Shown: one piece after another, positions 12,590 to 64,000 of the stretch
How positions within the stretch are numbered: the stretch's first letter is position 1
Layout of the letters: each line of letters opens with the position of its first letter
DNA from: Owenia fusiformis
Lineage: Eukaryota; Annelida; Polychaeta; Sabellida; Oweniidae
Reading direction: 5' to 3'
DNA: 64,000 nucleotides
Assembly: GCA_903813345.2 (NCBI GenBank)
Contig: CAIIXF020000025.1
Location: 62,001-126,000 of the forward strand
The notes under the pieces: model-generated
What the model was told of the DNA's origin: nothing
The model's database searches: none
The model's input: the letters and a program-made list of their open reading frames with translations, nothing else
Program-made: the position numbers and the translations under genes

Positions 12590-12925
12590 GCAACAAAATC
12601 TTTTTTTTATTTTTCTGACTTTGCCACTTAGATCGATGGTGATTAAGGGAATTGTCAAATCACTGGAACTTTGTATCTTGACTGATTTATTCAGTAATAC
12701 CATAGAATATTGTTTTTTCACAACATTCTCCTCCGGAGGTATAAGTTTCTTCCTTTCTTGAGACTCCAATATAACGTCTACATGTCTATATGTTTTCAAT
12801 GTATTGGGTTCATTGAGAGTATATAGTATATATATTGTATTTTCACAAAATTCTTCTCTGGAGGTATAAGTTTTTGAAGAGGTATTTTCTCCCTTATTTA
12901 AGGATCTCTGTCTTTCCAATGTCAC
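12590..12925 (-). pseudogene. Cassettes A and B fused in one open frame
   Basis: A 117-residue minus-strand frame begins in cassette-A sequence (MTLERQRSLNKGENTSSKTY, a different frame from the VTDGDSENG reading). It runs into cassette B (LNEPNTLKTYRHVDVILESQ, then ENVVKKQYSMVLLNKSVKIQ). The join lies in the 'ttcttctctggaggtataag' text that the 320-bp array also carries. It is probably a junction made by recombination between repeats, not a natural exon. Confidence 0.4.
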
Positions 12926-16248: not shown

Positions 16249-18788
16249 TTAGATCATAGTTTTAAGAGCTAGAACTGGGTCTAAAATAGACTTCTCCCCT
16301 TGTACCCCACATATGGGAATTTCAAGCACCTTTTGATCAAATTGTATTGTTTTTGAATGTCTCACTGTTAACACAGCTTCATATTGAGATTTAAAATTCA
16401 CATCTGACACCAAAAGAGTTTTGTTACTAATTGTTTCCACATTTCTTGGTAACAATGTAGATTTTCTCATGAAAGAAGAAAACGCAACCAGACAAGCTGC
16501 CCAGAAAGCAACGTTACAATTATTTGTAAGGTCAAGACAAGCACAAAGGTTTTGCAAGATCTCTGGCATTATTGCTAGTTTCTGCTTTGGTGGTTGTCCA
16601 TGGCAACGTTTGATACCCCTCATCACTAATTACTCGTCAAAGTTAAGGAGGGGGTTCTCAAATCCTGCTTCAAGATGCATAATCCTTATTATGTTATGGT
16701 ATCCTGGAATGCTACTGGGATTTAACGATCGAGCCAAAAAGGCTGAATATGCAATGATAGTTATTTTTGCAGCTAGTACTGGAGATAATCTAAAATATGC
16801 ACAAAATCGCAGATATGCTAATCGCATTGTTGTATGTCTTTTTAGTGGATTCCGCATAAGCCATCTGTTTGTATCCTTGTGCTTCCTGAACAATACATCT
16901 CCATTCCCTTTGTAGAACTCCTGCAAAAACATATATGTATGTACAGTCAAGTTATTGTACATGTTATACCATCCACTCTCAGGTGAGGCCACATATAAGG
17001 GCATAAGGTTTATCACTTTATCCAATTTAAGAATACATTCTTTTTCAGTTAAACGACTGATAGTATCACTGATTACATTACACTTAGTATTTATATATCT
17101 GGCAGTTATATAGAAATTATGTTCTATGGACACCAGAATAAATGACAGATCCATCGCATAACTGTTACATTCCTACTAGATCCTTTATTTATCTGATGTA
17201 TGGTGGCCTGGTTATCAGTATACACTACAATATGAGTATTTATCCAATGAGAACACCATCGCTCAGCTGATAGTACAACAGTTATTAACTCTTTCTCATT
17301 GATATGGAGGTGTGACAGATTTTGATAATCTGTATCCCAATGTACATAAAACCAATCACCCGCATAATATGCCCCAGCTCCATCAATGCAGAAATCACTT
17401 GTAAAATAATCTTGTGGTTTCATATCTTCAAAAAATGGGACAGCATTGCGTAACTGTTCATACCACTTTATACATTCTTAAATCCCACTTGGGTAGCAAC
17501 ATAATAGAATTTGCTGTGTTTTTTTTTTTTTAAGAATGTATGGTTTTATCAAAAGGAAAGTGCATTATTTTTCTATTGTTTTTAAAGAATGTACACTTGG
17601 CAAGCTATCAAAAACAAGTGAGACATAAATGACCATTGACAGTTTTTGAAAAAAAAATACATGTACCCTTCTATTGTTACTGTGCATTCTTTAGAATAAA
17701 ACAATTTATCAATTTTTGTTGCTATCTACATCATTGATCTTATCTTACTTACAAATATTCTGCTGTATTCAAATGCAATGTTCTGGACTGGACAGTCACC
17801 TGTAGTGCACTGAAGCTAGACTAATTATAGCCCACTCAGTCACTTACATCAACTCACACTCATGAGGTCAATGCAACCAACTCTTTTTGTTGTTACAATT
17901 AATTGGCTATATAACTACATGAACAGTCAACTCAAAAGAGCTCACTCACTTACATGTATCAAACCACTTACCCCTACATGAACACTCAAGACAAAAGAAA
18001 TAAAATTTTCCAGATTAGATCATTGACCATTTACCTGCAATATACTATTTACCTATAATAAGAATGTGTGTGATTTAAGTAAGATAAAGCATTCAAATTC
18101 GATTTGATAAGAAATAATAACCTCAGGCCTTCGGTGTATTATTTCTTATAAAATCTCATTCTTATGCTTTATCCAGTACATAGCACCACTTAATGTCAGC
18201 GCGCACTTTTATTCAGCCGTGTATGATAATGTCTTCCTTTTACTGAATTAAGCGCCGGAGGAATGTTCTTCCCCCGCGAATTACTTTTGCTACCCAGTTT
18301 AGCTTTCCAATTAGCTTCTGCAATTCTAACTTTGTTGCACATTTTTTCCGCTGCCAATTCTCCAAAAGCGCACACAAGACTGCTACCTTGTCTTGTGGTA
18401 AACTCAAAGTTCGATTTGCACTGTTAATTACTACTCCCAGGTATGTGAGCTCCTGGCAAGGGGGTACTATTTTATTCCAGCTAATCATGAATCCTAAATC
18501 CTGAAGTAGGGATAATAGTTCAGTATAGGCTAGCTGACATTCGTCCCTGTTATTAGCTATCACGAGCAAATCATCTAAATACGCCTTAACACAGTAGCCA
18601 CGGCGGCGCATCATCCTTGTTACAGCACTCGACAATCTAGAAAATATGCTTGGTGCCATAGAACTACCAAACATTAATCTACGATTCACTAAATAAGTCG
18701 GCTCTGAATCTCTGGTAAATGTCCATTGTAAACCAGAGACTTCATAGCAAGAGCTGTGAATACCAACACTTCTGACCCTCAGTATCAC
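16249..18788 (-). mobile_element. DIRS-like tyrosine-recombinase retroelement fossil A
   Basis: Treated as a fossil. Parts in minus-strand order are a reverse transcriptase with a YLDDLLV active-site box (about 18240-18788), an RNase H-like part with YTDNQATIHQI (about 17124-17460) and part of a tyrosine recombinase (about 16249-17150). The gag and 5' part of RT are not found. The order RT, RNase H, YR on one strand defines the DIRS order. The element is broken in several places and interrupted by a foreign insertion between RT and RNase H. It looks old. RT and RNase H resemble DIRS1/PAT-type elements more than fossils B and C do. Confidence 0.85.
17473..18240. mobile_element. Insertion within DIRS fossil A, with a stem-loop
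   Basis: The coding parts of fossil A stop at about 18240 and resume near 17473, leaving about 770 bp without retroelement similarity. The insert contains a strong imperfect palindrome at 18083-18174: 'gataaagcattcaaattc' pairs with 'tctcattcttatgctttatc', and 'taagaaataata' pairs with 'tattatttctta'. 'acattctta' and 'taagaatgt' also face each other near 17472 and 17533. It is probably a non-autonomous element or a nested pair, but I could not define its ends exactly. Confidence 0.5.
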
Positions 18789-18906
18789 TATTTAATAATA
18801 TACAAAATGTTTGGTAAAACATAAATGATACTATAAAAAATATAAATGACACACGCTGAGGATGAATAAAATATTCTAAACCTCCCATGTTTTTATATTA
18901 CTGATA

Positions 18907-25899: not shown

Positions 25900-26880
25900 G
25901 ATTTTTAGCATTTATGATTGAAAATTCAGAAATTTTTTTACATATTCTTTTTTGAACAAGTGACTCTCTGATGTTTTGTGACGATACATTCTTAATAATA
26001 TTAATATTGTTAAAATACATTGTTTCATCAGTGTTTAATTCATCCAAATCCTGTTTTATGCAAGCTTTCAGCATATTATATTGAAGTATAGTTTGACCGG
26101 TTTTTCCAATTCCTCATAAGTACAAAGTCTACCATTTTTGACAATATCATTCATGAATATTAATCCTCTCTTTATCCAATTATAAAAAACCAAATGGTGG
26201 CTCTCAACATTTTTCTCTTCTAATTGTTTCCTTATTTGTTAAATTGTAAATGCTTGTATACAATATTATGGTAAGCAATGAAATATTTTTGAACTTTGCC
26301 TGAACAGTAATGAAAACTGGCCCTGCTGTGAAAAATAATATATCAGCATAATCATTATATAACACAACATCTAAAAGCATCTTGAATATACAAGTATTGT
26401 TATGTTACATTGCTAATCAGTAATGATGCATGATTTTTTTGTATCTTTATATTATACTAAGAAGTTGGGACAGCTGCATTCAACATTTTCAATAGAGTAT
26501 TTAGTTATTAGGTATAGTAGGCCTCTAGTTATAGTATCACATATCTCACTAAGTAGTTCATTGGTGTACCTTGTATATAATTCCATTAACTAAACGCTTC
26601 CTTGGTGTACACTTTTCCCCACCGAAAACAGTTCTGAAATATTTGCATTTTAATTTAGGAACTGAGATATTGCTTGGGAAATATTTTAATGTAACTCTAA
26701 CCCTTGAATCTATGTTTACATTTAATTTAGTAATTCATCTATAACTGTCATAACACTTTCTTAGCATTCTCCATAGTTTGCCATTTATTCCTTGTTTATT
26801 CCTTTTTATGATACAACACAACAAGCTAACTTTTCATGCTCTACAGCTTTAATTAAAATATTCTCATATCAAAAGCAGAG
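25900..26880 (-). mobile_element. Possible L1-like LINE scrap
   Basis: Minus-strand frames around 26050-26330 give pieces such as GIGKTGQTILQYNMLKACIK and KERINIH, separated by stops. Their order and composition recall the linker region of L1-type ORF2. No motif is diagnostic, so this is a weak call. The rest of the stretch shows nothing I recognise. Confidence 0.25.
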
Positions 26881-26888
26881 TAGTGGTG

Positions 26889-27143
26889 TCAGACTTTAAT
26901 TTTAGAAAGGTTGTACTTTTTATCCATCTTTTCATAAATTTTATGGCCCAAGTCATTCAATATTTTATGTACACTTTCAATTCCCTGTTCACCTTGAAGA
27001 CCCATCCCACAATTGTATCTTTCTATCCATTCCGATATGTGATCTTCAATGAAATGTTGTTTCAAGGTGATATTTGTTCTTTTAAAGTAGTGTCTATATG
27101 CTTCCATGTAGCTGTCAAGTTTTACTTGAATTATTGGTAACTC
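26889..27143 (-). pseudogene. DDE transposase relic, C-terminal block (locus 1)
   Basis: The minus strand reads ELPIIQVKLDSYMEAYRHYF, then LKQHFIEDHISEWIERYN and GMGLQGEQGIESVH. The pattern of H-x3-EDH, about 20 residues, then G-EQG-x-ES-x-H is one I recall from a transposase-like family in cnidarians and molluscs. A histidine pair before a catalytic glutamate is a known feature of RAG1/Transib and related DDE superfamilies. The glutamate in GEQG or in ES is the candidate third acidic residue. A MITE directly abuts the upstream end and splits this block from its N-terminal parts at 27840-28417. Confidence 0.65.
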
Positions 27144-27706
27144 ACCCTATGCTTAGTGAGCGGACCTAATTTCAAGGGTGATGGTAAAGACGAGACATGG
27201 CGCCCAAACCTGGCCTGTAACTAGGTGCACTGATGCTTTCTTCGCAAATTACATCGCCATTGCTCGTCATCGAAATTCTGATCGCCGAATAGACACTCTA
27301 TAGTAAACATTCATTTTGTATTAGATGTACATAACTAGAGACCGCCTTATTTCGCATATATGAAAAAATAAAACATATCCAGGTACATATATCTTTATAT
27401 GTGACATCGATCAGGAATTATTGACATATTGACAATATTAGGTTGTAATTTCTTGCGGTAAATTCAAATTGTATCTTTAAACGACTGTTTCATCTTAACT
27501 ATTCGTTTTATTGGATGTAAAACAAACGGTATGCATAGTTTAACATCTTTCACTTCTAAAACAGCATAAAATATCACAATATTATCACCTTATGCTGCAA
27601 TAATACGACTTCAAAGATTATGGTACTAACATTCTTTGGTTTTTGGGCGCCCTGCCTCGTCTTTACCATCACCCTTGAAATTAGCTCCGCTCACTAAGCA
27701 TAGGGT
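27144..27706. mobile_element. hAT-like MITE of about 563 bp inserted in transposase locus 1
   Basis: The left end ACCCTATGCTTAGTGAGCGG is mirrored at the right by CCGCTCACTAAGCATAGGGT. The inverted repeat continues for about 55 bp ('atttcaagggtgatggtaaa' and its inverse). The flanks are GGTAACTC on the left and GGTAACTA on the right, an imperfect 8-bp target duplication that would suit hAT elements. No coding sequence. Both flanking sequences are transposase relic, so this insertion is younger than the relic. Confidence 0.8.
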
Positions 27707-27839
27707 GGTAACTACTCAGTCTCAATTTCTTTGTTGTGAGAATTGCGTTGTGAACAATTGACAGTTCTTTATTTATATCCTTGAAAATATTACTTATATG
27801 ATGTGCTGCTGTTATACTAATTTATTTTCATTTTTAGTC

Positions 27840-27965
27840 CTTTTGAGATTAATATAGCCTGAACCACTGCGTTACAAAGATCATTTCCATGATTTTCCAT
27901 GGTATGGTGGCCTTTGTATGTAATGTTTTTTTAAAACTTGGTTAAGTGTGGCAGCTACAGTTCCA
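27840..27965 (-). pseudogene. DDE transposase relic, middle block (locus 1)
   Basis: The minus strand reads SGTVAATLNQVLKKHYIQRP then PYHGKSW. I recall an R-x-x-YHG-x-S-(F/W) block in the same transposase-like family, lying between the C-x-x-C part and the GEQG part. Its position here, between the block at 28190 and that at 26889, fits that order. Stops follow, and the family call rests mainly on this context. Confidence 0.5.
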
Positions 27966-28189
27966 GATTCTAAGTGAAGTTGATTTTTTTTTGTTTTTCT
28001 GTCTTCGATTCCTTTTTAATCATTTTCCCTCTTTGTTTATTTGGAATATTTTCAAGCTCTTTTTTCAATTTGGAAATTTTCTGAAGTTGAGTTATACATC
28101 TTATAGTTGAACATATATAATATATATAACTCTCAATTTTAGTATCTGAGTAATATGTAAATTGAACATGGTTTGGGATTCGCATGAAT

Positions 28190-28417
28190 TTATAATAATT
28201 TGTTGACGGGTGACTGGGTCATTGGTGTACCCCATGTTTCTTCAGAAAAATTGTGATCACTTAAGAATGCAGCGAATATTAAAGTGTTCTTTGGGACATT
28301 TGGATTTCTTGAGTTCAATATTTGGTAATAAATTTTATTTAAAGATCCACTTCTCTGATCTGCTCCAATTTTGATCCAAATCGTGTCATTGGAGATAACA
28401 TGGGATTGCTCTATCAT
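28190..28417 (-). pseudogene. DDE transposase relic, first acidic region (locus 1)
   Basis: The minus strand reads NDTIWIKIGADQRSGSLNKI, then QILNSRNPNVPKNTLIFAAF. It aligns by eye with locus 2 (EEIWIKARTNSGKGSFKVTA, then QVCNFKNPNAKSNTIAVAI at 57240-57540). The aspartate in GADQ takes the place of the family's usual first acidic residue. Locus 2 has asparagine there. The second acidic region with CC-x-x-C is not found in locus 1. Confidence 0.6.
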
Positions 28418-28458
28418 ATTAATTTTTTTTCATTTTTTATTATTATTAAGGTGTGATT

Positions 28459-28645
28459 TTACATGTATTTTGAATTGTTAATATACATCATTTTTTGAAG
28501 CTTAATCTTCCTTGTCTCAATAAGATTCCCACACTTTTCAAAAATGTGGTTTTGGCCTATTTTACATTGTGAAATTTTCCAATTTTCCTTCTCCATACAG
28601 AAGTCCAAATTCTCTCCTTTTTTCACAACAACCATCATTCTGAAA
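28459..28645 (-). pseudogene. Exon-like frame upstream of transposase locus 1
   Basis: The minus strand reads MMVVVKKGENLDFCMEKENW, then ISQCKIGQNHIFEKCGNLIE, preceded by an acceptor-like run ending 'ttttttcag'. It lies on the same strand just upstream of the first acidic region, so it may be an upstream exon of the transposase relic. I do not recognise the domain. Confidence 0.35.
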
Positions 28646-28780
28646 AAAATAATGCATACATGAAATAGTAATACAAAACAACAAGACCCAAGGTAAACAA
28701 TATTGTACCTAAACAAAGCAGTATTTGCTTGTTGATCTAGAAAGCAAGATGGCCTCCAAAATGTTCATTAGCTCTAGAAT

Positions 28781-28969
28781 TTAAATATCTACTGCATTTT
28801 GCACCTTATGATACTGTACTGTTGCTAGCTCAGGGTCAATGTCTTCATTTGTAGAAATACCTTTAGGGGCTTTTCTTGGCATCTTTTTTGGTACCAAGCC
28901 TTTTAGGGAAACTACCAAATCAGCAGAATTGACTGAAGATGGACCAATAAGCTTGATGAAATCCTTCAT
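28781..28969 (-). pseudogene. Exon-like frame, unknown
   Basis: A 62-residue minus-strand frame, MKDFIKLIGPSSVNSADLVV through KGLVPKKMPRKAPKGI to an acidic end. No family recognised. The strand and position suggest it may belong to the same decayed gene as 28190-28645, but nothing proves it. Confidence 0.25.
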
Positions 28970-28999
28970 AATTTTTTTTCTTTTATATTTCTTTGTCTT

Positions 29000-29790
29000 G
29001 CATTAAAGCTGATTTAAGATTTCAATGTTCCCCTGGCAACAAACCTTCATAAGGTATTCTAAAACCTTTTGGAAAAGCTTCTCTCATCACATTTTTGCCC
29101 TTTGTTAAATGTTCATCAATGTTCCTCTGAAATATAAGGTACTAACTTCCTTGATTTTTTCATTGGATTGTTTGTTGTCTTTGTCCATCCCCTAGGGTTT
29201 CTTTACTTGTTTATCTTCTTTTTGATATGTTAAATACTACCTCATATTGTTTGGAAGAAATATTTGTCTCCCATTCTTAACTACTAACTCCATTACTCAT
29301 CTCCATGGCCCATGGTTCCAAATGTTGTGTTGGAAAGAAATGTTACTATTTGAAAACTCAAGCTATCAAAATAAAAATTGCTGTAGTTATCTGTTTTCCT
29401 TTATATTCTGTTTTTAAATTGGTCCTTAACCATTTTAAACTGTCAGTATAGCCAGGAATAACCTTTGAATAGGAATTACTATTGTTCCTGTTGTGTAACT
29501 TTGACCCGTGATTTGAACACTTTATCCTTGACTATTTGTTATTTAATTTAGCACACATAAACTAGAGGAAATTTTCGACATTGGAAATTTTTTGTTTTTA
29601 TTTTACTTCAATAACAATAAAATTACAAGTAATCGAATCAAGGGTGTCATTAATGGGTTTTCACCAAATTGATGCCATAGAATCATTCTATTAATTGTTC
29701 ATTTAAACAATTTTATTGACTTTTATCTCATTATCTTATCAATATTCATCTTATCGAATTTCATCTCAAGTGGTCCTGTATTTATGGTAC
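29000..29790. other. No gene recognised
   Basis: AT-rich sequence. The short frames are not supported by motif or repetition. Confidence 0.45.
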
Positions 29791-29893
29791 TTATGAATAG
29801 TTTATTACAAATCCTACATTTGGATATTGTATACTTGTCCTAGATCTATACTGTCTGATTGTAATTGTCTGGCTAAGGTAAAGGTAATATGAT

Positions 29894-30079
29894 TTACTGT
29901 TCCTTCGGCCAGTTGAAAATGTTATGGGCTGATCTTTTTCTTTTCGGTAATACTGTCTTGGCGACTTTACTGCCATGTGTCCACTTGTAGAATTCTCTTC
30001 CAGTTGCTCTTTTAAAATGAAAGGCTTCGTACATTGAAGGATCCTGCATCTCAGCTAACGCATGTTTTAAGGCCATCAC
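29894..30079 (-). pseudogene. Fragment of an unknown gene or element
   Basis: The minus strand reads LKHALAEMQDPSMYEAFHFK, then GREFYKWTHGSKVAKTVLPK. The composition (aromatic residues, GREFYKW, HGSK) looks like a real protein fragment and not chance, but I cannot place the family. It could be a transposon protein, given the surroundings. No repeat copy is present in the window. Confidence 0.35.
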
Positions 30080-30084
30080 ACATG

Positions 30085-32515
30085 ATCCTCAAAGTTGTGT
30101 GGTCCAACTACCCCATGCCCATACTCATCTCTTGGATTTCCTGGCAGTTTCCACCTAAATACTCTTTGTTGAACACTATTTTTAAATACTTCTACTAATA
30201 TGTTTTATTTACTTAAATTAGCCAGACCACTTGCAAATCCTTTCCTTTCTGTACTCAGAAGACTCTAATGAACTTAACTCTATACAAGTAAATGTATAAA
30301 ATACTAGTCGAAATAGCATACACAACTTATACTAATGTGGTAAGCGTGATAAAAAGTGATGCAATGACTAGTCTTTTATTGTTTGTGTTAATCATCAAGC
30401 AAACACAAAAATAATCAATTTGATGGGATAATAAGGAAAGTGCAAGCTAACCCACTCCCACAGTGCAATAGGTAAATTTTAGGAGAGGATGCAGGCGAAG
30501 GTTCACACAAAACCACACATTAATACAATGAATATGATTAAGATTAGATCTAATGATTTTATTATAACATAATAAATATGGTGATTAAATAATGTCATGC
30601 AATATGATTTATAAATATAGCAAATTAACATAAAGATTAAAAGTGATAATTAAGTATATGTATGTCAATATACAATAGTACATGTATGCATAGAAATGTA
30701 GGAAATGTTTAGATCAGATCTGTAATAATTCAAAATTATCTAAATCTGTTATTCATGTAACTTGTAAGTTAAACATTCAGAATCACAACATAAATTATGT
30801 CATGCGAAATGCGACCTAAAAACAGTTCTGTTTGATGAATCTAAGATATGAATTATTTTTTGTTATTTGGCCTGGAAGTAGTTAAACCAGAAAACATATG
30901 AATAAACAGATAAGGCCCATGTTGATAAATTGTCTTCCACAAAGTTCAGACTTTCAGACGCCAAAGAATTCAACCTTTGACCCCAAATTGCTTCTGACTG
31001 ATCCAGAAAAGAATGTGTAAAAATATGTTGAGAAATTGTCTTAATATTCAACCTCCCTTTAAATTGTACTATGATATTTCTAATGATTCGATATAGTAAG
31101 AATATTGGTAAATTAATAAATGGATGCGTTGGTAAACATTCAGTCATGTGACATCAACAAAAGCCCTCTGCTTTTAGAAATGGCGCTAAAATATTTGATT
31201 CGTTACTCAAACTTGATATAATCATTTATTCCCACTATGGGGCCTTTATACTTCGTGTGAAAGTATATTTGCAATTCATGGACTTCTAAAACCAAAACAA
31301 TTGATACGACAATGTCGATACAATGTCATCAAAACAATCAGAAGTTTCAAACTCCTCTATCAGTCCAATTCATTCAGTAATCTAGCTTTAATCTCTTAAA
31401 GATTTCTTCTAGATCTAGTATTCAATCTATCATACCTATTTAGAACATGAATGAAGCTCAAATCTTACTCACCCACATAATCTACTGATCTACTTTTGCT
31501 GAATGTTATCTTGTTCAAGATCTCGATGGCTTTGGAAATCAACTACTCCTTCCTCAAAATAGCCTCGCTTTAAATAGGGAATTTCTTACAGGGATTCCCC
31601 AAACATCATATTCCAAATTTAGAAGATTCGTCATATAATAGGAAACGTTTGCATCTTTCTCCTCTCTGTTTACCAACATTGTTAATGTTTATCAACAATC
31701 GATGACTCAAAGGTATTCGTAAAAGCATAATATTTGGTGTAATCGAAGGTAAGTGAAAATATGGTTATTTTGATTTGACTTCCGGGTTATCTGAGATGAC
31801 GGTATGTTACAAATGTACTGTACAGTTGTAACGTTATAGTCATTCAAACAATGTAGCAATTTGGTAAAACACTGGTAACTGTGCATTTTGAACTTATACT
31901 GCCATTTGACCATTATTAATCATATGGCTTAATAAAAAATTCTAATGTTGGAAATCTTCTCTAGTTTATCTGTGGTAAAATTAATAACAAATAGTTAAGG
32001 ATAGAGTGTTCAAATCATGGGTCAAAGTTATTATCAAAAACTTGTGTGGGATACTACATAATAAGAACGGAATGTACTAAAAACCCTTCGACCCTGCGAC
32101 CTACGACTTACAGCGTGTCAAGAATTTTTGAAACATATTTTTATAAAAACCCTTCGACCTTCTATTTTCTATCTTTCTTTCTGTCCGATCAACAATAAGA
32201 ACAGTTATACAAGAAATGTAAACGAAGTGAAAATATTCCCAAAAATTTTCCGAAAGGCATGTCATTTCCGGAAGTTATGATATGTTATATTACCGAACCT
32301 GGATGTAGACTACCGAGTTGATCTGTAACCACAACAGGCCTAATGTTCTGAAGTTATTTGACTTTTTGAGATACGCAAATTACATTCTGCTTTTGCATGT
32401 CAGTGAAATCTGCAAATAAGGAATGCTCTTGGGACTGGAGGAAAGTTTCCTTGTTCAGAGGTTTTCCTTATAGAGGGGTGCCACACTTTCAGCAAACTCA
32501 AACTTGCTGAATAAG
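30085..32515. other. Long stretch without a supportable gene
   Basis: Short frames only (for example 30863-31147 on the minus strand, unknown). No tandem structure or inverted ends were seen. Confidence 0.4.
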
Positions 32516-51330: not shown

Positions 51331-51945
51331 ATGAGATCATATCAACTTCCCTTTGTACTAGCCTACTTGCACTTCTTGTTTTTGGTATTGTTTATATGGT
51401 TTTCTTGGAATATAGAAGATGGACCTGAGAAATTTGACAACATTATGGTACTACATTAAAAAATAGATAGGACATAAACAATTTTGATCAGATGGGTGAA
51501 AATAGAGAAATGAATTACAACATAATTATTTTATTGTAATTTTTTTATTTTTATGATTCAAATGTACTATATTACCCCAAGGACACATATTAAAAAACTG
51601 GCCCATAAAAAGTGTATTCTGTTCAAGGGTGTGATTCTGTTCACCCTGTGGCTTGTTTTCAAATTCATCTACAAGTTCTCATGAGTTCAAATGTGACTTT
51701 AGATTTCAGATTTGACCAAGTAAGTAGGAACATATTGTCATATTAATGCCTTGTTGAATTTTACGTTCTTTAGTTTTGTTCTTTCAGGATACGCAAATGT
51801 CCCAGATAAAGTGTGTCATAAGTGCAGCTGATCTGCAGAGTTTGGAAAATAGTGAAGAGATGTTAGTTCTTTATATAATTGTATTTAAAAATAACAGATA
51901 AGTGTTTTAATTTTATTCTTTCTAATATGCAATTTTTCTTTCAAG

Positions 51946-52082
51946 ATGACCATTGTCTTGCAAGATGACCATTGTCTTGCAAGATAACATTTATAAAATG
52001 ACAAAGGTTCTATGGATAGAAAGAAATTTGAAGATTGATAAAGAATACACCTTCATCCTTAATGGAAACATCATTACAGATG
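51946..52082 (+). pseudogene. Exon-like cassette C, plus-strand copy 3
   Basis: Like 50814-50931 but with a 19-bp tandem copy of its start ('aagatgaccattgtcttgc' twice), which shifts the frame. It is followed by the same GTAAG donor. Confidence 0.5.
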
Positions 52083-52289
52083 GTAAGATAGAGATTTGAA
52101 AATGTAAAATAAAAATTAATTCAAAGATGAATTAGTTGCCAGTAGTAATAATAATAATCAACTTCACCACACATGGTGGTTGATGCTTGTTCTTTTTTTA
52201 ACGTAATTGTGAAAACATACTTCCCGCCTGCTCTATAGGGGAAATAATAAAGTGAGAAGTATAATTTTTTGGTGTGTCAAGAGCCATCC

Positions 52290-53080
52290 TGTGGCCATCT
52301 ATTTTGATTTATTGTTTTTATATAAAAACATTACATAATATTAAACAAATTAACAATAGTATAAATTCGTTTACATTGTCTTACATAATTGTATAAAGTA
52401 TTACATAATCTTACATAATGTTTGAAATGGACGCTAAAAAGCCTCTGGCTTAGTTATGAATTATCATGTTAGTGTGACCAAAGACCATGAAAAACACATG
52501 AACATTAATTTTTTTCTTAAGGCATGTGCCATTTGTGGAGAAAAATTAGCTATAAGAGTTTGAAAAGACAATGAATTTGTTTCCGGCGAGTTACGAGAAT
52601 TAGTCTTATTATTCTTCTAATATGCAAATGTTTTTAACTTTAAAGATTGGCCATCAGCTCAAACTCCAGGGAGTTTAAAATTTCGGTCACTATACCCTTG
52701 CTAAAACTAATTCGTTGCTAGCTATGTGTTTATACTGTATACAAGAACCATAAACTTTCCAGGCCAACTGCTCTGGGAAAGATATTATTCTTTAATTATT
52801 GTCAAACGTACTAGATTCCAGGGCAACTGCTCTGAAAACACCATTTGTTAATTTGATGTTATATTCTAATAAATGATAAAAGGGACTCTCATCTGGTATC
52901 AACCAATTCAATCATACTTGAATTTCCTTGCCCACTTTTTTCAAGAGTGCATGCATGTGCCAACCGTGTAATTTAAATTATGAGTCATAAATCATGATTC
53001 GATAGTGATAAGTTGATAGCTTGGGCAACACCTCAGGCTATTTATGAATTACATTGCCGAATTAATTTGAGGTCTTATGT
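52290..53080. other. No gene recognised
   Basis: AT-rich DNA. 'ccagg(c/g)caactgctctg' occurs twice (about 52760 and 52818). Part of this may be the 3' end of DIRS fossil C. Confidence 0.4.
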
Positions 53081-53085
53081 ATTTT

Positions 53086-55900
53086 TTAAAACTGTTTGAT
53101 GCCCTTCTCCCTAGGTGTATTATTTGCTGCCCTTCTCCCTAGGTGTATTATTTGCTGATCCCTTAGACCTTTGTTTATACACGCGCGAGTAGCCGAACCA
53201 ATTCTGAAGGAATGTGTCTTATAAAATTTTGTATTAAGATTCATGAATGTCAGGGCTTTTCTTAACCATTTGCTGAAGCTGTCTCTGTGGACTTGTGTTG
53301 TGTTTGATTGCAAAAACAGCGGGCCTTCTGACATACCCCTCAAATTGAGGTAATTTTTTTTAAGAAGTGAGACAGGGCAATATTTAGGAATGCTTCCTTT
53401 TTCAACTTGTATGCTATGCGATTTACCTGGTATACTATGTTTATATTTTTTGAAAGTGAATTCAAAAGCGCTTATTTTGGAACGTTCTCTTATGAATTTG
53501 TCATTATCTAATTGAATCAGATTTTGGTTACTTGAACCACCTTTTATTTCCCCTATTCTTAAGAAACAATGAAATGCCATAGCAAACATTGCTTTGGACA
53601 TTGTTTGCAAATAGGGATTTGATGGAATGATACAATTTAATGAATCGATAAGGCCATTCAAGATTGGTAGGGTTATTGGAAGTCTAGAGTCAATACATGG
53701 TTGTTTTTTCCTTAGGCCTAACAATGTTTTTTGAACGATGAAAGCATCGCTGGGTGTTCTATCATGTTGCAATTTGTGAATGTAACTCAAGGCGCTAATG
53801 TATGGTGTAATAGTAGAAGGTTTGAGATCTTTGAAGTTGAGATACGATATGAATAAAAGCACATCAGAGACATGACAGGGGAGCATCGGGATGTAAAATT
53901 TATATGAGTCATTAAATTGTTCATCCCATTTCAAGGCTGTCTTGTAAGCCACCCTTGAAGTTGGTTCCAAGGCAGCTTCTAGAATCCCCAAAAAATTTTG
54001 TTGCAGCTGTCGACTGGTAGGTTTGGTACATTTATTCCCTGTAAGTTAATAATTACATGGTGGTGTAATAGTTTAATTTTTGTAACTTGACCTCTGGATA
54101 AACTATCTGCTGATGTATTTAATGTTCCTGCCACATGTTTTGCACTGAATGGTATATTAAATGAGAGACAAGACAGAACCAATCTTTTGATGAGGGCCAT
54201 TATATATCCATCCTTTGACGTTTGTTTATTGATGATATATGTCACTGCTTCATTATCTGTGTAGAACAAGACATTTTTTTGTTTCTGAAAGAGTTTCCCC
54301 ACAAGTCTATTGCTAAAACTTTCGGATAAAGTTCAAGTATGGTAATGTGAATTTTTTTCCAGTGAGAATTACAAACTCCGTGGAAATAATTGTTTTGATA
54401 CAATGCGCCATAGCCCAAACCTGAGCTATCAGTGAAAAGTTTTAAAGTGTCGTAGGAGGTCCAATCGGGTGACTTAATGATTTCCCTCCCATTGAATTGG
54501 TTAAGAAATAAATTCCACATTTTCAAATCTTGCTTTGCTTCATTTTTCAGACGGATATGATAATGTTTGTTGGATATTCCCCTCGTCGAATCTATCATTC
54601 TCCTCAAGAAAGCTCTACCAGGGCATGCAAAAAATGAGGAGGCCTATGATTTCTTGCAATTACTTTAATTTAAGCTTATCTCTATATGCATATTTGTCTC
54701 TATCAAAGTATGACATTTATGAAGTTTTTTCTAATAGCAATCTGGCTTCCATTGATGCAGTGTCTAATTCGATGCCCAAAAAGTGAGGCAATTTATTGGT
54801 TCGGCAGATTTTTTTCTATAGATCATGAAATGCGTATGTCATTGCATATAGCCTGAAATTTTTGAAGGTACACTCGACCTTCTTGTTTTTGACACTACCA
54901 GGAAATCATCTAAGTAATGCAAGATATTTTGTGTTTCAAGTTGTTTTTTCATTATCCATTCCATGCATGAACTGAGTTTTTCAAATACAGCGCAACTACT
55001 AACGCAACCTTCTGGTAAAACTTTTTGATAGTAAAAATTACCCTCAAACTCAAAACCTAGTAATGGATAATTGTCTTCATGTAAAGGAATGATTCTGAAT
55101 GCGGAACAAATTTTGATTTTTATTAAAAAAACATTTTATACCCATTTCCGAAATTATTTTGATTGCTTCAGATATGTTTGAGTAATTGACGGATCGCAAT
55201 TCAGCTGGAATTCCATTGTAAATAGAAGAGCCTTTCGGATATGAAAGATCATGAATTATCTAAATTCGCCAGGGGTCTTTTTGGGGATTACTGACAATGG
55301 AGATCTGACAAAATACTTATCAAATGGTGGATCAAACTGGGGAGGTGAAATTCTGTTTGTTTGAATTTCAGATTTAACTTTCTCCTTAACAATGTAGTGA
55401 TTGATTATGGCCGACTTAAAATTAGTTGAACGCCTCGATTCTCTTTCATCAAAATAACCAATACTGAAACCGTTGCTGAAACCATTTAATAGGTAGCTAG
55501 ACAGAAATGCCTGGTATCCCTCGTTTAAGTTTGATAATCTATTATTATTATTAATGATTATTGGTGTTGGCATTGTGATTTGAGTTTTGACCCTTGTTAC
55601 TTGGAGTTTGAAAATTGAAGGACGAGTGCTGGGGTCAAAAATTCTTATTACGCTTCAAGTCTGGATGGTTTGCAGAGGGACTATTACACTTAAAGCAATA
55701 GTGGTGGAATTTGCATTCAGATTTTTTGAAGTTTGGCCTAATTGGAATTTATAACAAAATCCTTTGGGGATGTTTGATTTTGACTTGCTATTGCTTGGGT
55801 ATTGAGAGTTATTGTGCTTGTTATTTTGCTGTTTGCTTTCCCTCGAGGGAAGTAAAAATGAATAACGTGGGATGGGGTTGGTCCCAGGGTAAATTTCCTC
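53086..55900 (-). mobile_element. DIRS-like tyrosine-recombinase retroelement fossil C
   Basis: Treated as a fossil. Minus-strand parts are: a gag remnant with a Cys-rich cluster (about 55620-55900); reverse transcriptase (about 54640-55573, including SPLSVIPKKTPGEFR); RNase H-like with FYTDNEAVTYIINK (about 53979-54640); and a tyrosine recombinase with FLRIGEI and HSFRIGSA (53086-53991). The recombinase frame of about 300 residues is long and mostly open, so this copy looks younger than A or E. It is broken in a handful of places in RT and gag. It is close to fossils B and D. Confidence 0.88.
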
Positions 55901-56004
55901 GGATTTCCATTTTTATATTAGCATCTAGTAACTCAATATTATTCTGGAGATGTCCAATTTTTGCCAACATTGACATACATAGTGTCCAGAAAGTAAAGAT
56001 ACAA

Positions 56005-56780
56005 ATGATCTAATTTCATTAGATTTACTTGTTGTGAGATGAAATTGCTACATATTGTAGAATGACATTGTAAAAATATATCTTGCAACTGTCATGCATC
56101 AAATTATATACCACAACAGCAAAAGGACTAGTACTGTAACATTATTTAATCATTTGACATTACTATTGTTATACTGTTATATATTTTCCACCTTTATCTT
56201 AACATTCTTGGTGCATATTGACTGGAGATTCAAAGACCTGACAAAACCTTTGCTGTCAGTCTCTAAGATTGCTGATAACATTGGCTTCAAGCCGAGTCTC
56301 ATTTTTATGTTGAACTTCTCACAAATATTACTTTAACATATTCATTAATGTAGAAGTCCAATGGGACATTATCAGGGAAATATGGGCCATTGTAAAAAAA
56401 GGTTAATGTCAAGACATTCAATTGTAAGATTTTTTTCTTTGCTTTGTGCATTGGAGCATTGACTGTGGAGGTGCTCTATTGACTTTCCTATTAATCAAGG
56501 GACCTCTTTTCTAAGCACTTATATACTCTTTTTCTTTGATTATACTTGTGACATTACATAGTTCTGATATGTATCAATGATATCTTTATACTAAAGAGAA
56601 TACTATGGCAGCAACAATACAGTATTGAACAAAACAAAAAACTGATAAGAAATACAATAATAAACCCTATTTCAAATATATTTTAGCAATTTATCACAAT
56701 TTAGCAATATCCTTGAACTACTTCGCATACCCCTCACCACCGTAACCATGACAACCATAACTTTAACACATTTAGACTAT
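56005..56780. other. No gene recognised
   Basis: Short frames only. The 3' end of the locus 2 transposase relic may extend here, but I find none of the blocks that locus 1 keeps (YHGKS, GEQG). Confidence 0.4.
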
Positions 56781-56783
56781 ATG

Positions 56784-57600
56784 TTATAAAAGTTGGTAGA
56801 TGTATTGTAATGTAGTTCCTCTACCATCTGTAGCGATTTCATTACAAAAAACTAAATATCTTAAAATTAGAGTATTTGTTTCTTTACTTTCCGTACACCC
56901 TGTATATGTTGACTTGTCTTTTTCACAACTATTGAACTTACTGTCATTAAGTTTCAGTGCCAGATGTGAGTTAGAAGCCAAACGATAAGCTAGCTCCAAG
57001 TCTATGTGGTAGCAATCTATCTCAAGTAAATCATGATGTTTTTTTAACCACCCCAAGCAGGATATGGAGCCAAAGTGGACATACCTGAGATAATGGCACA
57101 TTCCATAAATTTACTTTTCCTTTATCTTCAAATTGTTTGTTGGTACACTCGGCTACACAGCGATTTTTTCAAGGACATTGAATTGCATCGGATGTGCAAA
57201 GGCAAAACAAGCAGCAGTGTTTTCCCTTTGCTCCTTATATACCATACAGGTCAGCCCCCATTGTGTAATTATCACATACAAATAGTCGAACAGTTTTGTT
57301 TTTCCATTTGATACTCTGGATTTTCACTATCACTATTTCAGGACTGAGTATATCAAATATTGGTTGTGTGTTGCAATAATAGTTCTTCATTGGAGATATT
57401 GCAACAGCTATAGTGTTTGATTTGGCATTAGGATTTTTAAAGTTACACACTTGTGCTGTAACCTTGAATGACCCTTTACCAGAATTTGTCCTAGCTTTTA
57501 TCCATATTTCCTCATCAATGTTCCTTCTCAGCATATCTCTCTTGTCATAATCATCAAGTAAGTCGCAGAGAAATCTACTCAGATTATTAACATAACGAGA
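56784..57600 (-). pseudogene. DDE transposase relic, catalytic-like region (locus 2)
   Basis: Minus-strand order: YVNNLSRFLCDLLDDYDKRD, then EEIWIKARTNSGKGSFKVTA and KNPNAKSNTIAVAI. Next is VRLFVCDNYTMGADLYGI and, past a stop, GAKGKHCCLFCLC. Then come VCPLWLHILLGVVKKHHDLL and EIDCYHIDLELAYRLA. An aspartate (CDNYTM) followed about 20 residues later by C-x-x-C matches the second acidic residue and zinc pair seen in RAG1/Transib and other DDE superfamilies. The usual first acidic residue reads as asparagine (RTNSGKG). The relic ends near 56784 without the C-terminal blocks. Confidence 0.65.
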
Positions 57601-57639
57601 GGTTTACTTTTTTGTAACAAAATCATTGACGCTTGATGC

Positions 57640-58330
57640 GGATTTATCATCCTTCACCTTAGCTTGGATATTCTTCACCTGGATATCAGTTTTGTTTTTT
57701 AATTGACTGTTTAGTTCTCTCCTGACTGTCTTCTAAGCTGCTAATCCAACTCCATGTTTAGCAAGCTGACGACATTGTATATTTATTGTCAGTGAGATCT
57801 AATGAAAATTTTAATGCCAGGGAATCTGCAGCATTTATAGTCACTTCTTTAGTAACCTTTTGCATCATCTTTTATTTAATATTGTCATCTAATGACTTTA
57901 TTTCTATGGTGTGCTGGTGAACGTCTTCATTGCCAGTTACTACACTTACTTACTGATTTTCTGTAAGTTTCAACATATTTCATCCTTTTTGGCATGATTT
58001 TTCAGAAGCTACATCACTGCCTATTTTGGGTTGAGGAGCATATACCATTTTAAATCTCTTGCTCTTTGTGTTGCATGCTACTGACATTTTATCTTTAGAC
58101 TGAAATAACTGTCTTTTTTATAACCAAGCTGCTTGCTTCTATCGCTTCTTTAGAAGCAGGTGAGAAGTTTCCTATTCTTTTCATCAATGAGAGTTACCTT
58201 TCAATTCTACCACAGGTGAAGTTCCTATTTCAAAAAAGATCATTTGCAGTTGAAATAGATGTGTCAATGTTGAATGATTCCAGAGTTTTTGTACATTTAG
58301 GGGTGCTATAATTAATGTTATTTAAGACTT
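57640..58330 (-). pseudogene. DDE transposase relic, middle region (locus 2)
   Basis: Minus-strand pieces in changing frames: DKMSVACNTKSKRFKMVYAP, then INAADSLALKFSLDLTDNKY (about 57750-57850), then IQVKNIQAKVKDDKSASSVN. The ALKF-x-LDLT-x-NKY segment is a good match to the text I recall before the first acidic residue in this transposase-like family. It is much decayed and links the Cys-rich N-terminus (58616-59097) to the catalytic part. Confidence 0.5.
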
Positions 58331-58615
58331 TTTCAATGCCCTAACAGAAAGCTTGGAATTAGTACATAATAGGATTTTATTAGTACTGATGCCCTTTTAG
58401 GGCCAAACACACATCCGATATACAATTTTCAATAACAGTAAATATACCAATAAAGTAAAGAAAATAGGATTATATTCTTCAAATGATAATTATAAAATAA
58501 TAATAAAAATGATAATTATAAAATAAAGATGATTCATTCACAGTTGAAATAGATGTGTCAATGTTGAATGATTCCAGAGTTTTTGTACATTTAGGGGTGC
58601 TATAATTAATGTTAT

Positions 58616-59097
58616 TTAGCAGTGGTAAATTCCAATTTGTTCATGAATTGAATCTGTTGTTTGAACAGAATCAAAAGTGGATACGTTCCGTTCATCATTA
58701 AAAACTGAGGCAATGTTTTTTGGTCGTCCTCTTTGTTTCTTTCTTGGTTGTCCACCTTTGGATTCATCAAAATATTGTTCATATAATTTACAGTTGCTAC
58801 TATGTATTTCAAAGTCATATATATCCACTGATTTGCATGTGTTTGTAGCTTGACAACTCCTAGCAGAATTAAGGAGAGTGTTAAAGCATGATCTGCAAAG
58901 TTTCTTTGGATGAATCTTTGGATCATCAGAATCTATATCAAGGTGGAAAATGTTGAAATATACTCCCTTTAACTAAAACAAAAATTAGCATATCCTTTCT
59001 TTGAAGTTTCTTGTTTAGTTTTTTGTTCTCTTTTGCCACATATCCTGCAGGTGTTAAGTAAACAATCCGCATTGTAACTGCTGTTAAAACTTGTCAT
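58616..59097 (-). pseudogene. RAG1 N-terminal-like Cys-rich region, copy 1
   Basis: From a Met at 59097 the minus strand reads MTSFNSSYNADCLLNTCRIC then GKREQKTKQETSKK. After a frame change it reads YFNIFHLDIDSDDPKIHPKK, LCRSCFNTLLNSARSCQ, YDFEIHSSNCKLYEQ and GGQPRKKQRGRPK. Vertebrate RAG1 has, in the same order, CRICG, then F-R-I-D-V ... IHP-x2-FC-x2-CW, then W-H ... C-D-I-C, then a basic stretch. The order, the IHP-x2-(F/L)C-x2-C core and the spacing agree. The last cysteine of the final pair is tyrosine here. In RAG1 these cysteines bind zinc. A GRPK AT-hook-like motif ends the part. I recall such a domain joined to a transposase in Aplysia ('N-RAG'). Confidence 0.75.
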
Positions 59098-59799
59098 GAT
59101 CCTAATTAAAGTCCATCATACTCATTGTATAAAAACTGAAAGAAAGTAATCCACAACTGTTTTATAAACATAAAACTCTGTAGAATAGCTACATTATATG
59201 TTTCTTGTATAGCAAATTGGAGATTTTTCTTAAATCAACTTTAAAGATGGAAAGTATCGGGATAAGCGAACATTCTTAAGGTTGAGAAAATTAGCCTAAG
59301 GATTATTAAGGGTATCAAATTGGTGAGAAAAATGGTTGGGGTTTAAGGTGATGACAGACTATTTAATTTATCTGTTGGAGATGGTTACAATTGTAGTTTC
59401 TATAAAACCATGAAATCTAGATGCTGATCTGCAGCTTAACTTCCTCTCAGTTGAACTCATTCCCTTTTGCCTATCCATGAAATCAGTGTGAATACATATA
59501 TACAATAATTTTTTTTATTATCTGTTTTAGTTACCTTGATGATGGAAAGTTTGATGTCGCTAACAACAAGCTAAAATTTGACATCGCTGAAGGATTAATC
59601 AAAGACTTTTTCAATGCCCCAACAGAAAGCTTAGAATTAGTACATAATAGGATTTTATAAGTAGTGATGCCCTTTTAGGGCCAAACATACATGCGATTAT
59701 TCAATTTTCAATAACAATGAATATAGCAATAAAGTAAAGAAAATAGGATTACATTCTTCAAATGATAATTATAAAATAATAATAAAAATGATAATTATA

Positions 59800-60215
59800 A
59801 AATAAAGATGGTTCATTCACAGTTGAAATAGATGTGTCAATGTTGGATGATTCCAGAGTTTTTGTACATTTAGGGGTGCTATAATTAATGTTATTTACCA
59901 GTGGTAAATTATGCTCACTTCCAATTTGTTCATGAATTGAATCTGTTGTTTGAACAGAATCAAAAGTGGATACGTTCCATTCATCATTAAAAACTGGGGC
60001 AATGTTTTTTGGTCATCCTCTTTGTTTCCTTCTTGGTTGTCCACCTTTGGATTCATCAAAATATTGTTCATATAATTTACAGTTGCTACTATGTATTTCA
60101 AAGTCATATATATCCACTGATTTGCATGTGTTTGTAGCTTGACAACTCCTAGCAGAATTAAGGAGAGTGTTAAAGCATGATCTGCAAAGTTTCTTTGGAT
60201 GGAAGAAAGTAATCC
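59800..60215 (-). pseudogene. RAG1 N-terminal-like Cys-rich region, copy 2 (5'-truncated)
   Basis: The minus strand reads FHPKKLCRSCFNTLLNSARS, CKSVDIYDFEIHSSNCKLYE and QPRRKQRG, with a stop where copy 1 has the Arg of GRPK. Beyond it the frame goes on with SVFNDEWNVST, EQIGSEHNLPL and NYSTPKCTKTLESSNIDTSI. The part before IHP, with CRICG, is missing: unrelated-looking TFFHPKK follows the duplication join. It runs further 3' in frame than copy 1. Confidence 0.75.
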
Positions 60216-60678
60216 ACAACTGTTTTATAAACATAAAACTCTGTAGAATAGCTACATTATATGTTTCTTGTATAGCAAACTGGAGATTTTTCTTAAATCA
60301 ACTTTAAAGATGGAAAGTATCAGGTTAAGCCAACATTCTTAAGGTTGAGAAAATTAGCCCAAGGGTTATTAAAGGTATCAAATTCGTTAGAAAAGTGTGC
60401 TGGGGTTTAAAGTGTACTAGGGTTAAAAGTGATGACAGACTAATTAATTTATCTGTTAAAGATGGAAATAAACTATACCCTACAATTGTATTGAAATCAT
60501 GAAATCTAGAGTAATCTCAACAGGCACATTGGCCATATTGTTTATCATAACAACAAGCCACTGAGCATGCTTAGCATTAACAGCGGATCTGCAGCTTAAC
60601 TTCCTCTCAGTTGAACTCAATTCTGTTTTGTCTCTCCATGAAATCAGTGTGAATACATATGTACGGTAATTTTTTTGT

Positions 60679-61161
60679 GTTACTTCGCTATACCTGCTAG
60701 TTGCATAAATAATTTACAAAAGATAATAGATTTATGTTGGCAAGAATAATATTATATGGCCATTTATTTCATTATAAAATATTACATAGCAAGTTTGACA
60801 TTATAAACTGAAGGATGGTGGAGGGGAATGGGTGGCAAGTTTAAATTTCAATATTTATACGTATACATGAAGTGAGTTCGTATTCACTCACTGTAATTGT
60901 AAGACTGCTTGATACTTGTGTTGGAATGGAATACTGACCAAGCAGTCCCCTCCTTCTCATTGGATAACCCTGTGTTACTATGGAAATGCTCAGACTACAA
61001 AACCCCTTATTGGCATAAGTGTAGAATTTGTGTTACTTCGCTATACCTGCTAGTTGCATAAATAATTTACAAAAGATAATAGATTTATGTTGGCAAGAAT
61101 AATATTATATGGCCATTTATTTCATTATAAAATATTACATAGCAAGTTGGGCATTATAAAC
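60679..61161. repeat. Direct duplication of a 131-bp block
   Basis: 60679-60809 and 61031-61161 are almost identical ('gtgttacttcgctatacctg', 'tattatatggccatttattt'), separated by about 220 bp of unrelated DNA. This is likely a recent event. Confidence 0.85.
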
Positions 61162-61307
61162 TGGCCACACTAATCCATGTAATGGATTAGTTTTGCCCAA
61201 CCAGGTATAGAGGTCATGTTGGTAAGAAGGTCTAAGAAGGTTTTGTGGTTTGAGGATGAAATTCATGAATATTGATTAAAACTCATCAATTAAGACTTAC
61301 TCATGTA

Positions 61308-62399
61308 CGAGGGGTGATCAATAAGTAATGGACGCTTTTTTACACGGATGCTTTTTATGGACCAATCTCTTTGATTTTTTCACCACTGATACATCATTCA
61401 ATTATCTATCAACTCTGAAGATCTAAAGACAAGATATGTAATCCGTGTTGATATATCTTTATTTTCGCGAAGGGGGTACAGGTACCCCGGGACCGACATT
61501 TACGTCACATATTCTGAAGAAATGCCAATTTAGCATATCAGTTAGATTTGAACTTTTTAATATGCCAAAAGATTTGTGTTGTTTGAATATCATGTTCCCT
61601 GTGGTAACACATAAAAGATTATAGTATTGTGATTTCAAAGTATTGTATGATCAGGGTTTGCAGGTTGATTTGAGAATGCACTGTGGAAGAAGGGGCTAGT
61701 AAGAGGAGGTAAGACCGTACTCCATGCGGATAATGCCCCTGTCCAAATATCTCAAACTGTGCAGGATACAATATCCCTGGACCTGAACATGAACATGAAG
61801 CCCTTGACCCATGCAGCCTTTAGTCCAGATCTGGCCACATATTATGACTTATTTATTTCTATACTACTTATTTCTGTAGAGAAAGGATGCAGATTAAATG
61901 ACATTGATGAAATAAAACCAGCTGTGTAACTGCAGCTTGTTACCATGTCAGAGAATGGATTCGGCCTTGACTTTCAATCTTGGGTTGAGAGGATAATGAG
62001 GAGTGTGTAGCACTTGATGGAACCTATGTAGAGGGCCCTGTAGAATGAAGGTGGCATGGATCCCACAAAGTGATGACAAAATATTTAAAATTAGTTATGG
62101 CGTATCAAAATGGTGTAATTCATAATCACCATGGTTCGTTTTGTTCAACTTGCGTTGAACTGCATTGCACGTTAAATTAGGTAAATAGCTTAAGAATGTG
62201 TGACGTTATGTCGGTCCCGGGGTACCTATACCTCCTTCACAGAAATAAAGATATATCAACATATATTACATGCTTTGCCTCCAAATCTTCAGAGCTGATA
62301 GAAAATTGAATGATGTATCACTGGTGAAAAAATTAAAGAGATTGGTCCATAAAAAGCATCTATGTATAAAAGCGTCTATTACTTATTGATCATCCCTCG
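61308..62399 (+). mobile_element. mariner-like element with long TIRs, non-autonomous relic
   Basis: CGAGGGGTGATCAATAAGTA at the left faces the inverse of CGAGGGATGATCAATAAGTA at the right. TA lies on both sides (61306-61307 and 62400-62401). The inverted repeats run about 210 bp (61308-61517 and 62191-62399), with roughly one difference in ten. The interior has only the C-terminal part of a transposase on the plus strand (61711 onward): VLHADNAPVQISQTVQD, then HAAFSPDLATYYDLFIS, then stop codons, then W-V-E-R-I. The HADNAP and SPDL...D motifs hold the second and third acidic residues of the mariner triad, with about 38 residues between them, more than the usual 34. The N-terminal DNA-binding part is missing. 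Confidence 0.88.
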
Positions 62400-62401
62400 T
62401 A

Positions 62402-62885
62402 TAGGTGTTTCGTTTGTATCTTACTTAGCAAGTAACTAAAAGTTACACTTGCTGATTACTTATCACATCAATTGCCACCTCATTTGTCTAACCCAGCAAG
62501 TGTTTAGATTGTAGTTCTAACTACTAATTGATACTAATCTATGTTTTCCCTGAATGGGCATATATCACCACTTTAGTGGCAGCAAGTAGATGAGGTGCTC
62601 CTCAGCAGCTCCTCAGCAGCTTTTTTATATTTATTAACAGTGACCACAGGCTGATGTATAGTTAACATGTGCAGAATTTTCTTGAAACTTTTCGTGGGAA
62701 ATGAAACATTTTACCCATTAATTGCGTATATTTTGATAACTCGTTACTGAAATATGGTCTAGAGACCCTTTAGAAGTAGATAAGCATTGGTTAATGTAGA
62801 TACTGATAATCGTTTTCAGATAAAAGTATCTTGACCCTTGGATAAACTAAAAGTTTTAATCCATGGAATACGATTGTAGTTGATG
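62402..62885. other. No gene recognised
   Basis: Spacer between the mariner-like element and DIRS fossil D. It may hold the 3' end of fossil D. Confidence 0.4.
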
Positions 62886-62890
62886 TGTAA

Positions 62891-64000
62891 TTACATGGAA
62901 TGGACACGAATATATCGCCTGACTGCTTTATATTTCCATCTTCCCATTTTTCCAACCTGTCCTTCAGAAAAATTGTTTTTTGTGACTAAATCACTGGAAC
63001 GACCAATACGAAATGAATGTGATTTGTATTTTTTAGTGTCAAGACCAAGTGTGGATAAGGCTGATTCTAATATTCTAGAATATTTTTGTCTTGAGACTGG
63101 GAATCCTTTTTGATCTTGAAACAATGACCCAGTGTTTGAGTGAGTAATGAGCCTGTAATGTTGTAGAGTACTGACTGGGCAAATAGAGTGATTTGTAGAT
63201 TTGTCAATTTGAAGTCTAAAAGGAGTGGAGCAGGTGTTATGCTTTTAGGTCTTGAATGCTATGATAATACACTGCTGTTTAAATTCAATGTTTTCCCACT
63301 TCACAGTATGATTTGCTTTCCCTCCAGAAGCTATTTCAGATATCCTTAAGAATGCATGATATGCAAGGGAGAACATTGCTGTGAACATAATTTTATCATA
63401 TTTGTTTTCTGAACACAGAATTGGTAAAACACTTATTAGTTTATCCAGTATGATATCTGTGATGGGTAATCTTGCATCTTCAGTGGGGGAAATTTTCGTT
63501 GCCCCTCTCAACATTTTCTTGATGGCTAAATTGTCAGAAGGATCTGGCAGTTGTTTAAGTTTATGGTAATACGATATCCCAGATATTATGGTCATTATGG
63601 TAGCACTAGCATAGTTTTGAAGCGAAAGATGTGCAATAAAGTCACTAAGTGTTTTGTTGGAACGGGGAACATGGGTGGTCTGGGCCCGGTAGAGTAATAA
63701 GACTTGTGGAAACTAGTAAATTTCTCCCAAGCACGAATATATGACTGTTGAGTTGAGGTGGTGAGTGATTTATTGATTAAAACTGCAGTTCTGGTTTTAT
63801 TTTAACTTTAGATTGATAACTGGATCCACTGGTTCTGATTCCAGATAAGGTGCTAGTTTTCGGGCATGGTCCATCTGAAAATGAGAGATTGCGTCACTAA
63901 TAGAATTCTTGGAAGTGGAGATGTATAATGTTTTTAAGAATGTTATTTTCAAGGCATGTAAGGATCAGTTGTCTAAGTAGGGCCATTGTGATTTTGCTTT
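62891..64000 (-). mobile_element. DIRS-like retroelement fossil D, cut by the window edge
   Basis: Treated as a fossil. Minus-strand parts visible are the end of an RNase H-like region near 63840-64000 and a tyrosine recombinase (about 62891-63600) with YHAFLRISEIASGG, then HSFRIG and GRWKYKAVRRYI at the end. Gag, RT and most of RNase H would lie beyond 64000. It is broken a few times in what can be seen. By the recombinase sequence it groups with fossils B and C. Confidence 0.85.

Follow-up and report, generated by a model that had tools for sequence, protein, structure and literature searches.

Within the window, by which we mean the entire 64,000-nucleotide stretch of Owenia fusiformis DNA under analysis, the minus strand carries the decayed remains of a RAG1-like zinc domain and, on the same strand about 1 kb further on, those of a transposase. 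Both lie among duplicated and inserted sequence, and a second, divergent transposase relic lies elsewhere in the window. The features on which the argument draws are the following.

58972-59097, minus strand: first cysteine module, with CRIC; 42 codons and then a stop, in another frame than the second module
58616-58972, minus strand: second module, part of the RAG1 N-terminal-like (N-RAG or Chapa) domain; 118 codons and then a stop
58324-59515, minus strand: duplication unit 1, with the more complete N-RAG copy
59602-60676, minus strand: duplication unit 2, with an N-RAG copy that has an in-frame stop (PF12560 below cut-off)
58240-58324, minus strand: partial third copy (85 bp, 96-98% identical) of sequence found after the N-RAG domain
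56913-57603, minus strand: transposase relic 1, Chapaev-type, with internal stops, about 1 kb downstream of the N-RAG domain
55975-56905: inverted-repeat element whose 59-nt arms are 78% complementary; relic 1 stops here
26898-28405, minus strand: transposase relic 2, a divergent relative of relic 1
27143-27707: element inserted within relic 2, with inverted arms of 66 nt that are 95% complementary

Read along the minus strand, the two modules present CRIC (59049-59038, inside the first module), then F-x2-D-x3-D-x3-IHPKKLCRSC, then H-x3-C and finally the basic GGQPRKKQRGRPK. The first module (59097-58972) includes LLNTCRICGKREQ before its stop, and the frame of the second starts at 58972 and gives a relic of 118 aa (58972-58619) that includes, in this order, FNIFHLDIDSDDPKIHPKKLCRSCF, EIHSSNCKLY and GGQPRKKQRGRPK. 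The initial annotation had claimed these motifs in this order; they are present on the minus strand as stated, except that its H-x3-C-x2 pair lacks the cysteine that should follow, the relic reading HSSNCKLY where the RAG1 stretch printed with the database match reads HTPSC. The two modules it had placed in one stretch are also both there, but in different frames, and the single 160-codon frame it had used contains two stops and does not include the second module. The printed RAG1 stretch shares I-F-x2-D-x3-D-x3-IHP-x3-C-x2-C and H-x3-C with our relic. RAG1 itself has a C-x2-C at the position matching the H-x3-C region of the relic. Of the putative zinc ligand pairs, CRIC, CRSC and H-x3-C can be read in the relic, with CRIC standing in the separate frame and outside the profile match described below. 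All six frames of the window together contain a single instance of F..D...D...IHP..[LF]C..C, a motif defined post hoc from the relic and RAG1, and 100 first-order simulated windows contain none; its shorter core, IHP..[LF]C..C, turned up once across the 100 simulations. CRIC by itself is found three times in the real window and 40 times across the 100 simulated ones, and it therefore carries little weight when taken alone.

Profile searches bear out the RAG1 likeness of the second module. The Pfam scan covered seven of the 20 ORFs of at least 80 aa in 52000-64000, together with the CRIC piece. A comparison with a profile of the RAG1 N-terminal region was the check that the initial annotation had proposed, and in it the 118-aa ORF matches RAG1_imp_bd (PF12560) at 30.1 bits (cut-off 23.3, E 4.9e-7). 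The family also passes on the whole 1866-residue frame with X at the stops (24.4 bits, E 2.6e-5), as well as on a joined reading of the CRIC piece and the ORF (33.1 bits against the curated cut-off of 23.3). On the joined reading the match takes in residues 48-128 and profile positions 146-222 of 284, that is, the second module only, and over the ORF and the joined reading together the span starts at profile position 146 or 147 and ends at 222 of 284. As this stretch begins after the CRIC piece, the CRIC module receives no support from PF12560; the piece on its own (59097-58993) has no Pfam match. The claimed likeness to the RAG1 N-terminus accordingly holds for the second module, with the CRIC module falling outside the match. 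We infer from its motif and its position in the sequence that the CRIC module would be the first half of the same N-RAG domain.

Several controls accompany this match. None of nine control sequences (the 118-aa ORF reversed once and shuffled eight times) matched PF12560; three of them matched other families weakly, with E 0.0089 at best. Against PDB sequences (E up to 10) the ORF retrieved only three RAG1 sequences, and these weakly (E 0.01-0.024). The joined reading had them again as its best matches (0.013-0.076), followed by a haemoglobin at 1.5. A single-sequence fold of the N-RAG ORF had a mean pLDDT of 45, too poor for a structure search. Viral contigs scanned with the N-RAG ORF, the transposase ORF, a C-terminal piece of relic 2 and alignments of relic 1 with relic 2 and of the N-RAG domain with RAG1, and genome contigs scanned with the two alignments, gave no confirmed relatives; as these collections contain viruses and prokaryotes, the result carries little weight. 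Rfam at gathering score yielded no matches and ARAGORN no genes.

The same joined reading brings in the first alternative, namely a zinc domain of ZAD (zf-AD) type that has no relation to RAG1 and came from a transcription factor or from another transposon. Here zf-AD matches residues 16-76 (59052-58874, minus strand) over model positions 1-55 of 75 with E 0.00099 and takes in both cysteine pairs, which PF12560 fails to span. However, this amounts to 19.7 bits against a cut-off of 28, and a shuffled control had reached E 0.0089 with another family. PF12560 scores 13 bits better and reaches into the H-x3-C and the basic part, and once the CRIC module is removed it stays above its cut-off while zf-AD is no longer listed. 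We hold such an origin to be extremely improbable. Rival zinc families had been named in the initial annotation as what would speak against a RAG1-like region; in the event zf-AD proved the weaker match, below its cut-off, and no BED family was listed.

The DDE-like transposase relic that had been placed next to these modules is indeed present downstream of them, at 57603-56913 on the same strand. Its ORF 57603-57235 scores 21.8 bits against DUF1280 (cut-off 25). Past a stop, the sequence can be read on to 57040 and then, after a frame change near 57040-57056, to 56913, and the parts so joined reach 24.8 bits (E 1.9e-5), a score just below the cut-off of 25 and without a shuffled control. By eye, the relic has the D of a CDNY (57273-57271), a C(2)C (57213-57202) and an LH (57069-57064). 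DUF1280 has been assigned to Chapaev transposases, with RAG1 and DUF1280 placed together in clade II (PMC3985635), and relic 1 is on this ground probably of Chapaev type. The motifs described for Chapaev transposases are C(2)C, LH and H(4)H, along with CAC...GTG termini and target-site duplications of 3-4 bp (PMC4079192). Since C(2)C and H(3-4)H are common to EnSpm, Mirage, Chapaev, Transib and RAG1 (PMC12730594), these motifs do not single out Chapaev, and the call rests on DUF1280.

Relic 1 is cut off at the 55975-56905 element before the third motif, H(4)H, and the final E, so that no one copy shows all the motifs, and the 3' end is not preserved next to it. Neither CAC...GTG termini nor a target-site duplication were found, an inverted-repeat search of 54000-64000 having returned two pairs, neither of which bounds relic 1. 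Beyond the 55975-56905 element lies, by our own reading, a DIRS-type retroelement (53086-55912, minus strand), with a reverse transcriptase Pfam match at 54839-55135 inside its remains and a very weak Phage_integrase match (E 0.11) at 53086-54045. Below it, inspection of the three minus-strand frames of 51500-53200 by eye recognised no more of relic 1.

The nature of this relic bears on a second alternative, in which the locus would descend from a genuine RAG-like (RAGL/TransibSU) transposon of the kind reported in protostomes, carrying RAG1L and RAG2L genes. The PF12560 match would fit it, and most RAG1L proteins of protostomes are described as having kept the three N-terminal zinc motifs (PMC7204232). 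The downstream relic, however, resembles DUF1280 rather than the RAG1 core of vertebrate or protostome RAG1 and RAG1L, and no RAG1-core, RING or Kelch family was listed nearby in nine frames (55000-60600 in three minus-strand frames at E up to 10 and three plus-strand frames, and 60600-64000 in three minus-strand frames, both at E up to 1), although strong decay could hide one. We therefore give this alternative little credence.

The N-RAG side of the locus has been duplicated in tandem, a feature absent from the initial annotation. The two units are 87-98% identical by aligned block and 98% identical over the N-RAG block. Unit 2 has no counterpart of about 58913-59136, that is, of the CRIC module and the start of the next. 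Its N-RAG copy (ORF 60013-60297) scores 13.8 bits against the PF12560 cut-off of 23.3, and past its in-frame stop the frame is open again to 59758. In the shared N-RAG frame four codons are substituted between the copies and all four substitutions change the protein, one of them to a stop. After the stop, the domain frame of unit 2 extends across the 85-bp segment, of which a further copy, at 58240-58324, directly adjoins sequence on the transposase side. That the domain and the transposase belonged to one gene is best supported by this bridge, which lies in the N-RAG frame and borders on the transposase side. The 630 bp from 58240 to 57610, between the bridge and the readable transposase, are too broken to prove a single reading frame.

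These observations also have to be set against a third alternative, that of chance neighbours: an element consisting of N-RAG alone, comparable to N-RAG-TP, might have come to lie beside an older Chapaev relic. There is precedent in that N-RAG-TP is described as made entirely of RAG1 N-terminal-like sequence (PMC8355894); further, the readable parts of our locus are about 1 kb apart, and the duplication is restricted to the N-RAG side. On the other hand, the two parts share a strand, stand in the expected order and are connected by the common 85-bp segment. We regard a chance juxtaposition as unlikely, if less so than the two alternatives above, and infer from strand, order and bridge that the N-RAG domain and transposase relic 1 derive from one gene.

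Relic 2 is a divergent relative of relic 1. A tblastn search with relic 1 over the 64-kb window found 28390-28271 (37.5% identity over 40 aa, E 6e-4; 1.6e-4 in the reverse search), and tblastn with pieces of relic 2 over the window returned relic 1 and otherwise nothing better than E 0.38. By eye, relic 2 has IWIKIGAD (D at 28360-28358) and, beyond the inserted 27143-27707 element, H(4)H (27056-27039) and GEQGIESVH (E at 26978-26976). Its short first piece matches DUF1280 at 19.9 bits (E 6.3e-4), below the cut-off of 25 and without a shuffled control. A whole-frame Pfam scan around it (26500-31500, three minus-strand frames) found no family, and with the C-terminal piece the only matches were a ribosomal protein at E 1.5 among PDB sequences and GDH_HM3 at E 0.22 in Pfam. 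As for the catalytic residues, relic 1 would retain the second D, and relic 2 the final E and the first D, that of IGAD, with which an N is aligned in relic 1. There is a CRIC upstream of relic 2, at about 29800, without a profile match, and we therefore claim no N-terminal domain for relic 2.

The locus combines a RAG1-type second module, duplicated in tandem, with a relic that resembles DUF1280 and lies downstream of it on the minus strand; both are decayed. This is the arrangement of a Chapa domain before a transposase, and in our judgement the feature probably formed the N-terminal end, with a Chapa or N-RAG domain, of a DNA transposon of Chapaev type that is now dead. The element no longer works, because its frames are shifted, stops are present and an N stands at the position aligned with the D of IGAD. 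Its closest known counterparts are the Chapaevs with a Chapa domain (Kapitonov and Jurka, 2007, via PMC4411706), which likewise have a RAG1-like zinc domain ahead of a DUF1280-like DDE transposase; the Chapa domain is described as a truncated N-terminal part of RAG1, named after the Chapaevs and present in them (PMC4411706). The motif likeness is divided between the two relics, with C(2)C and LH in relic 1 and H(4)H in relic 2 only. In contrast to the Chapaevs, the present copy is decayed and truncated, and its termini were not found. Two Chapaev subgroups are described as carrying a RING, whereas none was listed at our locus in the nine frames scanned. The Aplysia californica N-RAG-TP of Panchin and Moroz (2008), described in PMC8355894, PMC2996935 and PMC13337447, is likewise a transposon encoding a RAG1 N-terminal-like protein; by these second-hand descriptions it is wholly N-RAG-like, whereas our locus has a transposase relic next to the domain, which fits the Chapaevs. 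The combination of a RAG1-like zinc domain with a Chapaev transposase is thus already in print (PMC4411706), and in view of these published descriptions the locus adds a decayed member to a kind already known. The class membership proposed in the initial annotation stands in its core, but the bearing on the origin of the RAG1 N-terminus that it drew from this had been published before (PMC4411706, PMC8355894).

As to how the intact element might have worked, the transposase would be a DDE enzyme of the CMC group with an RNase H fold. Its protein would most likely have begun with the zinc-binding N-RAG or Chapa domain, followed by a basic segment and then by the catalytic domain, which would have cut and pasted the element. 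General knowledge of DDE transposases underlies the role proposed for the N-RAG domain, most likely that of an accessory part of the transposase, binding zinc and nucleic acid. That the domain would bind DNA is suggested by analogy with RAG1, whose residues 87-217 bind two zinc ions that this domain requires for folding and for DNA binding (PMC3124419).

The locus is a further example of a RAG1-type N-terminal zinc domain that precedes a Chapaev-type transposase. It agrees with the published view by which transposons had combined this domain with a RAG-related DDE core earlier than V(D)J recombination, and, being a decayed copy without termini, it provides no further test of that view (PMC4411706). 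Given that the joined relic matches PF12560 in its second module and, more weakly, zf-AD from the CRIC to the CxxC, one might speculate that RAG1 inherited the first half of its N-terminus (CRIC ... CxxC) from a ZAD-type zinc domain. We rate this as an improbable idea, drawn from sequence likeness; were it true, the N-RAG domains of Chapaevs would connect ZAD domains with RAG1. It is counted against the idea that zf-AD was not listed when the RAG1 stretch was compared with Pfam (E up to 10), a comparison in which the middle of the stretch was masked. Our search of the literature found no paper connecting RAG1 with ZAD.

Additional repeats and mobile-element remains occur in the window. A 137-nt direct repeat (60674-60810 and 61027-61163, 99% identical, starts 353 bp apart) begins where duplication unit 2 ends. 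Further along, 61299-62408 has 201-nt inverted arms (87% complementary) flanking a relic ORF on the plus strand (61669-61929), which is without a Pfam match and which we take by eye to be mariner-like (HADNAPVQ). Nearby, a tyrosine-recombinase (Phage_integrase) match near 62891-63712 (minus strand) is read as DIRS-type remains, as is a reverse transcriptase match at 18240-18791 (minus strand). Finally, there are two tandem arrays, one at 12832-14083 with 323-bp units in 3.9 copies (97% matches) and the other at 11512-12292 with 261-bp units in 3.0 copies (94%).
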